Shown here one piece after another: positions 37,122 to 40,916 of a stretch of 64,000 bases of DNA. Each line of letters starts with the position of its first letter. Within the stretch, counting starts at the first letter, position 1. Origin of the DNA: Methanocalculus alkaliphilus (lineage in GTDB: Archaea > Halobacteriota > Methanomicrobia > Methanomicrobiales > Methanocorpusculaceae); assembly GCF_024170505.1 (NCBI RefSeq), contig NZ_JALJYG010000006.1, forward strand, positions 1 to 64,000, in the 5' to 3' direction. Both the position numbers and the translations under genes were made by a program. The notes below the pieces were generated by a model. It did not search any database. It was given only the letters and a program-made list of their open reading frames with translations, and was not told the origin of the DNA.

Positions 37122-37640
37122 TCAGATGAGAACCTCAATGGCAACCTCATTGCGCCTCAGAAATCCCGGTATCCATGGGGGATTGTACCGCATCAGAAAG
37201 ACCTCCCCATGGGTTGGAATCCCGGCGTTATCCAGTCCATCCAGCAGTCTTCTGGTGGCACCATCGACATCCTCCTTTCTGGCCAAACCGCTGAACCGAA
37301 CCACTCCAACATCCCTCGGCGGGATCGTGGTGATCCGGATACGATCATCCAGTGGGTCGGGCACATCACCCTGTCGCAATCCTGCGGGGAGGACAAATGA
37401 GATGGAGCCCTTATCTGAGATGACGGGAGAGGTCATCGGAATTTTTTGGGAGGTGATCACCGGGGAGGTCATCGGGAGTGTTTGCCGGGATCGATTATTC
37501 CCGGTGATGTACTGGAAGAGAAGGGGAAATCCGCTCTCATCGCCTGCATCAGCGACAATTGCCAGGATGAGTTCCGGATATCTGCGCACCTCAATCTCCC
37601 CGATGGTCCGGGCAACATCATACGCAACCGTTTCCGTCAT
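37122..37640 (-). CDS. SOUL heme-binding family protein
   Basis: A 172-residue protein of the SOUL/HBP family, which binds heme or tetrapyrroles without covalent bonds. Characteristic are the start YDVARTIGEIEVRRYPELIL, the repeated MTSPVI (in LPMTSPVITSQKIPMTSPVI), FVLPAGLRQGDVPDP and the C-terminal FLMRYNPPWIPGFLRRNEV. The start is taken at the ATG at 37640; an earlier ATG at 37655 is possible. It follows the methyltransferase gene by 27 bases on the minus strand. Role in methanogens is unknown. Confidence 0.88.
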   Translation of the reverse strand: MTETVAYDVARTIGEIEVRRYPELILAIVADAGDESGFPLLFQYITGNNRSRQTLPMTSPVITSQKIPMTSPVISDKGSISFVLPAGLRQGDVPDPLDDRIRITTIPPRDVGVVRFSGLARKEDVDGATRRLLDGLDNAGIPTHGEVFLMRYNPPWIPGFLRRNEVAIEVLI

Positions 37641-37667
37641 AGAAAGTACTTCCAAAAGGGGGATTCT

Positions 37668-38504
37668 TTATTCCCCTTTCCTCCAGGAGATCATCGCCGT
37701 CGTCCGTATAGAAGTCTCCCGGAACATCCCGTCATCATCCTTCTGCAACCTCTTTTCATAATGGCTGGTGACGAGATCCAAATCCTCAAACCCGGGGGCA
37801 TGCATCGTGATCCACTGTTCAGCCGCCTCCTCAGGAGATGCATAGATCGTCTCCCAGACTGCCCGGTAGATCTGCATATCGGCATAGATCTCATAATCAT
37901 GCAGGATATTGAGGAGGAAGAGGGCGTCCGGATACCCGCTCTGCCGGGCACCTTCTTCTCCATGCACCGCCCTGTAGAGTTCCATCTCCTCAGGTTCACG
38001 CCAGGGGCCGACATGCCAGAAGAGATGCACCGACCGACTGGCTGCCGCATCCATCTTCAGGAGCTCAGAACCAACATCATAAAAGCCGAGCGAGAAGGCG
38101 GCGATGACGACATCATGCACCGGAATGTCCCTCCCAACCACCGCATCCTCCCACCGCATCGTCACACACGAGTAGTTCGACCGCCCCTCCGCTGCCATCC
38201 GTTCCTTCAGGTGATCGAGCATCCCCGCCGACGCATCAAGAGCGGTGACATGCGAAATCCTTCCTGCAATCGGGACCGCAAGCCTCCCTGTCCCCGCACC
38301 TATGTCAAGAAGGGTATCCTCAGGCCGGAGATCCAGCATCCCAAGCTCCTGCCTTGTTGACTCCTTCTCGTCACGGGTGATCCGGTTGTAGGCATGTGCC
38401 TTCTTGTCCCATATCGCACCCGGATCCTTGTCTTTCTCAGTACGGATCCGGGAGCTGACATGGATCGCCTTCCAGAGCTCATCCCAGTTGATGATCGACT
38501 GCAT
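37668..38504 (-). CDS. Class I SAM-dependent methyltransferase
   Basis: A 278-residue protein with the SAM-binding motif I LLDIGAGTGRLAVP, motif II VTALDASAGMLDHL and a following acidic-rich VRWEDAVV-like strand (MRWEDAVVGRDIPVHDVV). The C-terminal half has no clear substrate signature. The start at 38504 is backed by a GGAGAGGGGAT ribosome-binding site. It is cotranscribed with the SOUL gene and divergent from the CooS-like gene, with a 110-base gap. No specific substrate is inferred. Confidence 0.85.
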   Translation of the reverse strand: MQSIINWDELWKAIHVSSRIRTEKDKDPGAIWDKKAHAYNRITRDEKESTRQELGMLDLRPEDTLLDIGAGTGRLAVPIAGRISHVTALDASAGMLDHLKERMAAEGRSNYSCVTMRWEDAVVGRDIPVHDVVIAAFSLGFYDVGSELLKMDAAASRSVHLFWHVGPWREPEEMELYRAVHGEEGARQSGYPDALFLLNILHDYEIYADMQIYRAVWETIYASPEEAAEQWITMHAPGFEDLDLVTSHYEKRLQKDDDGMFRETSIRTTAMISWRKGE

Positions 38505-38614
38505 AGCTATCCCCTCTCCGTTCAGGGTAAAGAAATGCACGGTCATCCAATCTCTGAAGGGATGGACGAAGAATTATAATGTTTGGATTATACATAGCCC
38601 AATGGGTGAGAGAA

Positions 38615-40498
38615 ATGGATGAAAACAGAATATCCTACCATGATTCGGTAAAAAAAGTCTATGAACGGCTGAAAGAGGATGGCATGTCGAATGTCTGGGA
38701 CCGATATGAAGCCCAGGGGCTTGGATCAAACCCGGATACGAGATGTAAATTCTGTATGGGTGGAGTACGATGCGACTTCTGTTCAAACGGCCCCTGCCGT
38801 GCTGATGCCGCCTCCGATAAACGGGGTGTCTGCGGCATCTCCGCAGACGGGATGGCGATGCGAATGATGCTCCTCCGTAACGTGATGGGGGCATCAACCT
38901 ACCAGTATCATTGCGAAGAGACGATCCGGACGCTGAAGGAGGCGGCGGCAGGATCCGGCCCCTTTACCATCCGGGATCCTGAGAAGCTGAAGGCCTTCTC
39001 GGCACGCCTCGGCCTTGATGGCGATATACCCGCACTCTGCGCCTTTCTGCAGGAGGACTTTCACCGCAGATCCCATGAAGAGAGCAGGATCGTCGATCTG
39101 CTCGCACCCGAAGACCGGAAGAAGGTCTGGCGGGAACTTGGCATCTTCCCGGGAGGTATCTATGGGGAGATGGTCCTTTCAACCGGCTCATCGCTGACGA
39201 ATGTTGACGGATATTATGTCACCCTTGCAAAGAAGGCACTCCGACTGGGGGTGGCGATGGCATACCAGAGCCAGATAGTTCTTGAATCCCTGCAGGACGC
39301 CCTCTTTGGAACTCCAAGACCACACCAGGTGCGGGTCGATCTCGGTGTTCTTGACCCAGATTATGTCAATATTCTTCCAAACGGGCATGAACCCTTCCTT
39401 GGGTTTACCCTCATCGAGACGGCACGCCGCCCTGATCTCCAGGAGGCCGCCCGTGCCGCCGGTGCAAAAGGGATACGGGTGATCGCAAATATTGAGACCG
39501 GACAGGAGATGATCCAGCGATGGGAGATGGATGATGTCTTTGCCGGCTTTACCGGGAACTGGATCATGCAGGAGGCGGTTCTTGCGACCGGAGCAGTCGA
39601 TGTGTTTGTTGCAGATATGAACTGCTCGCTCCCGATGGACCCCCTCTATGCAGAGAAGTACTGCTTCTCCCTCATCCCGGTCAGTGAGCTCGTCGCCTTT
39701 GAAGGGGAGACGATCCGGGAGAACTACAACCCGGCAACCGCAGATGCCCAGGCAGAGCGGCTGATCCGTATCGGCATTGAGAACTTCCCGAAACGGAAAC
39801 GTTCTGTTGCACCTCTCACTGGCCTGCCCATCGGTTCGGCAATTGCAGGCTTTTCACCGGAGAGCATCCTTGAAGCCCTCGGCGGATCACTTGATCCCCT
39901 CCTCAATGTCATCAAGGATGGCACCATACGGGGTGTCTGCGGCCTCGTCTCCTGCACCACTCTCAGGGATCATGGCCAGGATATTCATACCATCGCCATC
40001 GCCGAGGAACTTATAAAGCGTGATATCCTCGTCCTCTCGATGGGCTGCGGGAGTGCCGCCCTCCAGGTCGCAGGTCTCGCCTCGCCTGAAGCGAAGGAAC
40101 GGGCAGGACCCGGCCTCAAGGGTCTCTGTAAGGCACTCTCGATACCGCCTGTCCTCTCATTTGGGACCTGCACCGACACGGGCAGGTGTGCTGATCTCAT
40201 CGGGGCGATTGCGGCTGCCCTCGATGTCCCGGTCACCGCCCTCCCGGTAGCGGCGGCGGCACCCGAGTATATGGAGCAGAAGGCGACGATTGATGCCATC
40301 TTCGCCCTGGCATTCGGTCTGTACACTTATGTCAATCCCATCCCGACGGTGACCGGGGCTCCGAATCTGGTGAAACTATTAACCGAGGACCTCAAAGATA
40401 TAACTGGTGGAGTCCTCTCGGTCGAGCCGGATCCGGTGAAGGCAGTTGACGGGATCTCTGCACATATCGAATCGAAAAGGAGAGAACTTGGAATATGA
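38615..40498 (+). CDS. cooS: Divergent CooS-like Ni-Fe-S protein (CO dehydrogenase family)
   Basis: A 627-residue protein of the CooS family. The N-terminal cysteines fit cluster D of the Cys-x2-Cys kind (Cys44, Cys47) and cluster B (Cys53, 56, 61, 73). Among the C-cluster ligands by comparison with bacterial CODH-II from memory, His258 (NGHEP), Cys337, Cys447, Cys478 and Cys519 are in place, and the catalytic Lys is at 556 (EYMEQKA). However, the ICCTGNE motif that supplies the Fe-bridging Cys is replaced by ANIETGQE, and the four-His proton path is reduced to a single His99. Activity as CO dehydrogenase is therefore doubtful. It is first in a three-gene unit. Confidence 0.85.
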   Translation: MDENRISYHDSVKKVYERLKEDGMSNVWDRYEAQGLGSNPDTRCKFCMGGVRCDFCSNGPCRADAASDKRGVCGISADGMAMRMMLLRNVMGASTYQYHCEETIRTLKEAAAGSGPFTIRDPEKLKAFSARLGLDGDIPALCAFLQEDFHRRSHEESRIVDLLAPEDRKKVWRELGIFPGGIYGEMVLSTGSSLTNVDGYYVTLAKKALRLGVAMAYQSQIVLESLQDALFGTPRPHQVRVDLGVLDPDYVNILPNGHEPFLGFTLIETARRPDLQEAARAAGAKGIRVIANIETGQEMIQRWEMDDVFAGFTGNWIMQEAVLATGAVDVFVADMNCSLPMDPLYAEKYCFSLIPVSELVAFEGETIRENYNPATADAQAERLIRIGIENFPKRKRSVAPLTGLPIGSAIAGFSPESILEALGGSLDPLLNVIKDGTIRGVCGLVSCTTLRDHGQDIHTIAIAEELIKRDILVLSMGCGSAALQVAGLASPEAKERAGPGLKGLCKALSIPPVLSFGTCTDTGRCADLIGAIAAALDVPVTALPVAAAAPEYMEQKATIDAIFALAFGLYTYVNPIPTVTGAPNLVKLLTEDLKDITGGVLSVEPDPVKAVDGISAHIESKRRELGI

Positions 40499-40644
40499 GT
40501 GACAACCTCAAAGGACGGGTTATCAGGCTGGACGAGCGTCCAGAGTATCAGGATGGGGCTGTTGCAGGCTGTATGGTGGTACAGCAGCATGCCCTTCGGG
40601 CTGCACCAGGATGTACGATGGCTCTCATCATGATAAGGGGGTGA
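40495..40644 (+). CDS. 49-residue protein translationally coupled to cooS
   Basis: Too short for usual gene callers. It reads MSDNLKGRVIRLDERPEYQD, then GAVAGCMVVQQHALRAAPGC and a short hydrophobic end TMALIMIRG, with Cys26 and Cys40. The ATG overlaps the cooS stop (ATGA) and is preceded by AGGAGA. No family recognised. A small maturation or electron-transfer partner is possible, but this is only inferred from coupling. Confidence 0.6.
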   Translation: MSDNLKGRVIRLDERPEYQDGAVAGCMVVQQHALRAAPGCTMALIMIRG

Positions 40645-40649
40645 TTCCG

Positions 40650-40916
40650 ATGGCAGATGAAGGTGATTACTGCACCATCTGCGGGGGAACACCGCCTGAC
40701 AAGATTCTGATCAGACGTATCCTCGTTGATGGAAAAGAGACCGGAATCGACAAGCTCGACTGGATCATCAGCGAGGTGAAAAAGCTGAAACTCACCGATG
40801 AGGCAAGGATAGCAGACGAACTCCTCCTCCGGGCAGGCAAACTCAACTATATTCCGACAAAGAAGGCAGACGATTACCGCACGGCACTCCTCGAGGAGTA
40901 CCGGCGGTCGGTCTGA
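40650..40916 (+). CDS. 88-residue conserved CxxC protein
   Basis: A small protein with a CxxC near its start (DYCTICGGTPPDK) followed by RRILVDGKETGIDKLDWII, a helical KKLKLTDEARIADELLLR and LNYIPTKKADDYRTALLEEY. Proteins of this shape occur in methanogens and anaerobic bacteria near Ni-Fe-S or redox-disulfide genes, but I cannot name the family. The AAGGGGGTGAT ribosome-binding site lies in the end of the 49-residue gene, 5 bases before the ATG, so all three genes of this unit are probably expressed together. Confidence 0.75.
   Translation: MADEGDYCTICGGTPPDKILIRRILVDGKETGIDKLDWIISEVKKLKLTDEARIADELLLRAGKLNYIPTKKADDYRTALLEEYRRSV

Follow-up and report, generated by a model that had tools for sequence, protein, structure and literature searches.

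A CooS-V-type protein in Methanocalculus alkaliphilus and gene families that neighbour both its relatives and hcp

The closest described relative of the protein considered here is CooS-V of C. hydrogenoformans, in which Cys295 is exchanged for Glu and which holds a Ni-free [4Fe-3S-nO] hybrid cluster that undergoes redox-dependent rearrangement (Jeoung et al. 2022, PMC9311411; PDB 7B7Q). CooS-V has no CO or CO2 activity, reduces hydroxylamine slowly (0.13 per second) and does not detectably reduce NO; its potentials lie ~300 mV below those of Hcp, from which its authors inferred different functions, and they argued for a reductase (PMC9311411). Inoue et al. 2019 (PMC6344411) defined the type as structural group D-1, likened it to Hcp and associated it with COG1063 and HypA/B; the word "cupin" does not occur in their main text, nor was an Hcp-like neighbour set found there. 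A genomic-context survey of 2026 could discern no clear pattern among the neighbours of clade D, whose members it called solitary in 64% of cases, and left a high co-occurrence with HCP unexplained (PMC13056359). As for Hcp itself, hcp-frdX operons occur in deltaproteobacteria and clostridia (Rodionov 2005, PMC1274295), NO induces frdX-hcp of C. difficile, which is also required for resistance to NO (PMC12915319), and a cupin gene beside hcp in D. desulfuricans is strongly NO-induced (PMC5701242). These genes may be orthologues of the ferredoxin and cupin genes described below.

The window, that is, the whole stretch of DNA analysed, comprises 64,000 nucleotides of Methanocalculus alkaliphilus (contig NZ_JALJYG010000006.1, positions 1 to 64,000). 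It contains a CooS-like gene followed by two small ORFs (Table 1), a set that the first-pass annotation had regarded as an uncharacterised Ni-Fe-S unit of three genes.

Table 1. Features at the cooS-like locus, in window coordinates
Feature	Position	Strand	Remarks
Divergent methyltransferase-like gene	37668..38546	-	Found beside the locus in several congeners; serves as a context marker, outside the system
cooS-like ORF, 627 aa	38615..40498	+	CooS-V-type (structural group D-1) protein, as judged from sequence
Glu294 codon	39494..39496	+	Replaces the pendant-iron Cys of CODHs (residue map)
49-aa ORF	40495..40644	+	Cupin_2 remnant (alignment to four congeners)
88-aa CxxC protein	40650..40916	+	YC-x2-CGG ... 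NYxPxKK; usual downstream partner of the cupin across the order

Cluster site and spread of the CooS-like protein

The 627-aa protein matched TIGR01702 (CO_DH_cata, NCBIfam) with 708 bits, and its score against the Hcp family, TIGR01703, was 25.8 bits versus a cut-off of 360.8. Its best PDB match was 7b7q, the CooS-V of C. hydrogenoformans, with 672 bits versus 401 for the next structure. A residue map was drawn up from an alignment of the protein with this CooS-V and with the canonical CooS encoded in the same genome (G000:C7:34517-36343). Identity to CooS-V was 53% over the whole length, and the positions corresponding to the hybrid-cluster ligands were His258 (His259 in CooS-V), Glu294 (likewise Glu in CooS-V, for Cys295 of CODHs), the four cluster cysteines Cys337, Cys447, Cys478 and Cys519, and Glu554 (Glu556), with Asn336 (Asn337) and Tyr96 (likewise Tyr in CooS-V, for the relay His) as second-sphere residues. 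The bridging-cluster motif Cys38/Cys41 of CooS-V is represented by Cys44/47, with Cys47 equivalent to Cys41, the bridging-cluster Cys at the Gly41 position that marks CooS-V and D-1 proteins, and the B-cluster motif by Cys53/56/61/73. The Glu for the first C-cluster Cys and the Tyr for the acid-base His are those by which group D-1 is defined in Inoue et al. 2019. The canonical CooS shares the fold and most ligands at 39% identity, but has CCTGNE, the relay His and a Ser rather than the second Glu, and is adjacent to a CooC-like gene.

These alignments bear out what had been read from the letters alone, namely that His258 and the four cysteines are kept, that the ICCTGNE motif reads ANIETGQE, and that the four-His path is reduced to one His; Glu294 stands in place of the pendant-iron Cys, and Tyr96 in place of the first relay His. 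A Cys nearby that might take the place of the missing ligand was looked for in the alignment, and this candidate was ruled out, there being none. The protein therefore has neither the complete six-ligand C-cluster set (Cys to Glu at 294) nor the acid-base/relay His (Tyr96) of a functional Ni,Fe-CODH. On its sequence, we assign it to the CooS-V type (group D-1), a known enzyme type rather than the uncharacterised Ni-Fe-S enzyme first suggested, the crystallised relative being Ni-free with an Fe-S-O hybrid cluster (PMC9311411).

The ligand that has changed is Glu; this alteration of the site is ancient and conserved, and a structure already accounts for it. The triple E294/E554/Y96 was present in 90/90 Glu-type copies, whereas all 19 canonical CODH controls had Cys, Ser or Thr, and His at these positions; a few loci enter these counts twice. 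The cluster ligands reported for CooS-V, including the equivalents of Glu556, Asn337 and the window's Cys44/Cys47 motif, were invariant in 77/77 aligned relatives. The closest named relative, M. chunghsingensis, was 97% identical over cooS, and dN/dS against the closest species was 0.043, which places cooS under strong purifying selection. Members of the family in Methanosarcina, Archaeoglobus, Asgard archaea, Bathyarchaeota, Chloroflexota, WOR-3 and Deltaproteobacteria shared ~67-73% identity with the window protein. The 80 nearest loci, from archaea and bacteria, form a tight set (~67-97% identical) that, together with the cupin and CxxC gene neighbourhood, distinguishes the window protein, known here from its sequence, from CooS-V itself. 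In two further genomes (G039:C35 and G041:C21), the Glu-type cooS seemed to be fragmented into separate frames or truncated at the end of a contig, possibly representing additional gene losses.

A residual or conditional CO dehydrogenase, oxidising CO or reducing CO2 in vivo, would fit the CODH scaffold with five of the six C-cluster ligands and the catalytic Lys retained, as well as the M. acetivorans genetics hinting at a CO role for D-1 proteins that Inoue et al. 2019 cite (PMC6344411). However, neither reaction was seen with the Ni-free CooS-V, the C295E variant of CODH-II is Ni-poor and cannot oxidise CO (cited in PMC9311411), and the acid-base His is Tyr in every Glu-type copy. In addition, the recurrent neighbours at 77 Glu-type loci included no conspicuous CooC-like gene, whereas the canonical CooS of the same genome adjoins one. 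We consider such an activity very unlikely. The earlier proposal of a divergent CooS clade holds, and its reaction is probably something other than CO oxidation.

The two small downstream genes

Both small ORFs are present as originally described, and the start of the 49-aa ORF overlaps the cooS stop (ATGA). At the same place and with the same overlap, the sister species carry an intact 107-aa Cupin_2 gene (Pfam PF07883, E=4.7e-13), and nucleotide alignment with four congeners revealed that the window copy lacks 174 nt, in frame, from its middle. A 7-bp repeat, CCGCATG, occurs in the M. chunghsingensis cupin at nt 94 and 265, at or next to both deletion ends; the spacing of the two copies, 171 nt, means that one more codon was lost. 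The codons that remain had a pN of 0.19 and a dN/dS of 0.31, versus 0.06-0.08 for intact cupins and 0.04 for cooS. Judged from these comparisons, the 49-aa ORF is a decaying, fast-evolving remnant of an internally deleted cupin, and its reading as an independent small gene was rejected. An assembly error is an unlikely source of the deletion because of the excess substitutions in the remnant.

Neither Pfam, NCBIfam nor the PDB sequences contained a match to the 88-aa protein, and a Foldseek search of the PDB with its AlphaFold2 model (pLDDT 79) returned nothing, the best E being 1.3. Within a sample of 247 genomes of the phylum, the full-length protein was confined to the window's order, with partial matches only elsewhere. 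In almost every case its gene immediately follows a cupin gene of a single family. Among the 31 related genomes with a full-length CxxC gene, counted by hand from the tables, Glu-type CooS was present in 13 and absent from 18. The cupin-CxxC pair is thus a wider, order-wide association. A second paralogue of the 88-aa protein, matching only from about residue 17 and lacking the CxxC end, was observed at G000:C1:80574-80795 and similar places; it occurs in most genomes of the order, and no cupin lay beside it in the one locus inspected (L157).

A dedicated unit, in which both small proteins would be obligate partners of CooS, is suggested by the ATGA overlap, by the close spacing and by the intact cooS-cupin-CxxC trio of four further genomes in the genus and of one Methanoregulaceae contig. 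Nevertheless, 18 of the 31 genomes have the cupin-CxxC pair without CooS-V, two congeners (G001 and G004) have deleted cooS down to at most ~55 C-terminal residues while retaining the cupin and CxxC genes intact, three genomes have CooS-V but no full-length CxxC protein, and in the window the cupin is lost although selection on cooS continues. The three genes thus do not form an obligate unit, and the proposal of one, which we now regard as highly improbable, is largely refuted. Of the suggested linkage of the small genes to this CooS clade, the part concerning the 88-aa gene largely fails, and the part concerning the cupin stands for its intact family, a recurrent neighbour.

Neighbours of Glu-type cooS and hcp

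When the genes flanking 77 loci were clustered, three families recurred on the same strand at positions -2 to +2 of Glu-type cooS: a two-cluster ferredoxin (~260-290 aa), cupins and Rrf2 regulators. A cupin or a strict FrdX-like ferredoxin was found within 1.5 kb on the same strand of 34/90 Glu-type copies versus 0/19 canonical CODHs (Fisher p ~6e-4, indicative only, given that the copies are related to one another and that these loci themselves supplied the profiles); the remaining 56/90 Glu-type copies had neither neighbour. Weak ferredoxin matches near canonical CODHs (E 1e-6 to 1e-8) were rejected as FrdX, none passing the strict cut. The label "FrdX-like" rests on architecture and on adjacency to hcp, including at a deltaproteobacterial locus. 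The intact cupin family is a real recurrent neighbour of Glu-type CooS, and the canonical CooS of the window's genome has no cupin, ferredoxin, HxlR or Rrf2 gene beside it.

Several other genes were observed around these loci. Close to the window locus lies a gene for a SOUL haem-binding family protein (37122-37655, minus strand; PF04832, E=1.3e-36). In Methanoculleus (G056:C4; L043/L102), a nitrite/sulfite reductase-like gene, judged by eye, directly follows the Glu-type cooS. In three Thermoplasmata/Methanomassiliicoccales MAGs (L243, L244 and L245, in G075, G089 and G065), a CODH with canonical ligands is fused to acetyl-CoA synthase domains in one frame of ~1378 aa, making a single-chain CODH-ACS, with a ferredoxin gene upstream; the CdhC and ACS C-terminal domains were checked in L243.

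The hcp loci provided an independent, out-of-sample test of these families. In the window's own genome (G000:C13, L191), hcp is followed by the same cupin family, with a divergent HxlR gene and the same ferredoxin family on the opposite side; this ferredoxin is ~60-67% identical to several that lie beside CooS-V in other lineages. Between hcp and HxlR at this locus (G000:C13:41155-42756 region) lies a short ORF in which the beginning of hcp recurs (MFCNQCEETVKGNGCTV...), possibly as the result of partial duplication. Of the 20 hcp loci in the order, 16 have a divergent HxlR gene, and in three Methanofastidiosum loci the same HxlR family, the same ferredoxin and a cupin precede CooS-V. Another genome (G053, L186) has the order hcp-cupin-CxxC, and in the cupin tree hcp-linked, CooS-V-linked and free-standing members are mixed within one well supported group. 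At the window locus, the HxlR/FrdX/cupin set is represented by the cupin remnant alone, the cupin being intact in the sister species.

It is quite possible, and we propose it tentatively, that either Glu-type CooS or Hcp can serve as the catalytic component of a single conserved gene set, CooS-V being a second hybrid-cluster enzyme that evolved independently and was recruited into the Hcp stress pathway. Such a set would comprise an HxlR or Rrf2 regulator, an FrdX-like ferredoxin and a cupin, plus the order-specific CxxC protein in Methanomicrobiales. Simple substitution of CooS-V and hcp for each other is not general, since several genomes carry both. A shared Hcp gene set around CooS-V appears not to have been noted before, and in the open-licence literature we found no paper treating HxlR and a hybrid cluster protein together. 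If true, the shared set could help to explain the high co-occurrence reported for clade D and HCP.

Proposed role and its meaning

From the ligands, selection and neighbours observed, we infer a cluster, a reductase activity and a physiological role: the window protein is probably a low-potential hybrid-cluster reductase in an Hcp-like redox/N-oxide stress response. By analogy with CooS-V, the CODH scaffold with the Cys295-to-Glu, Ser-to-Glu556 and related changes would hold a redox-morphing, Ni-free [4Fe-3S-nO] cluster, substrate would gain access in the reduced state only, and electrons would enter via the bridging [2Fe-2S] and the [4Fe-4S] clusters. Gene context suggests the ferredoxin as the electron donor and, because cupin, HxlR regulator and FrdX-like ferredoxin neighbours are common to CooS-V and hcp, most likely a part in the anaerobic response to redox or reactive-nitrogen stress (NO, hydroxylamine-like compounds) to which Hcp belongs. 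In the window, the CooS-associated cupin would have been deleted and the CxxC gene left over from the cupin pair. The likeness to Hcp with FrdX thus lies in a putative hybrid cluster, a ferredoxin-like neighbour and the cupin and HxlR families found beside this genome's hcp; the window protein differs in belonging to a separate prismane/CODH branch and, if CooS-V is a guide, in its lower potentials. Several points count against this explanation: the window subclade is 53% identical to the crystallised CooS-V, whose authors inferred a function different from that of Hcp; most Glu-type copies (56/90) have neither a cupin nor the ferredoxin nearby; cupins and ferredoxins are common genes; some genomes carry CooS-V and hcp together; and the M. 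acetivorans genetics hint at a CO role.

The substrate may be another N-oxide, a hydroxylamine-like compound or another small oxidant, because CooS-V did not detectably reduce NO and lies so far below Hcp in potential. Reductive detoxification of O2, peroxide, or a sulfur or nitro compound, not of reactive nitrogen, would agree with the several oxidants on which Hcp-family enzymes act (cited in PMC9311411), with the link between the Cys41 [2Fe-2S] bridging cluster and O2 tolerance (PMC9311411), and with the unclear source of NO in methanogens (PMC10210160); however, the common neighbours are those of NO-responsive hcp regulons, and we regard this possibility as unlikely. A redox sensor or regulator, whose cluster switches with redox state so that the protein signals or buffers without turning over a substrate, is quite unlikely. 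The very slow hydroxylamine turnover of CooS-V, its reversible cluster restructuring, the regulatory roles proposed for clade D in the 2026 survey (PMC13056359) and the HxlR or Rrf2 regulators that adjoin some Glu-type copies are consistent with a sensor, but the buried cluster, the redox-gated substrate channel, the retained electron-transfer chain, the ferredoxin neighbour and the opinion of the authors of the CooS-V structure all argue for the hybrid-cluster reductase.

The enzyme type itself had already been described; what is new here is the recurrence of cupin and FrdX-like ferredoxin genes beside Glu-type CooS. The annotation "CO dehydrogenase" that genes of this kind carry in many archaea and many bacteria is probably wrong, and such an error would affect the inference of CO metabolism from genomes. 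For a protein whose type is known but whose job is not, the shared neighbours lead to a testable hypothesis, that it has the same regulator, electron donor and stress as Hcp.
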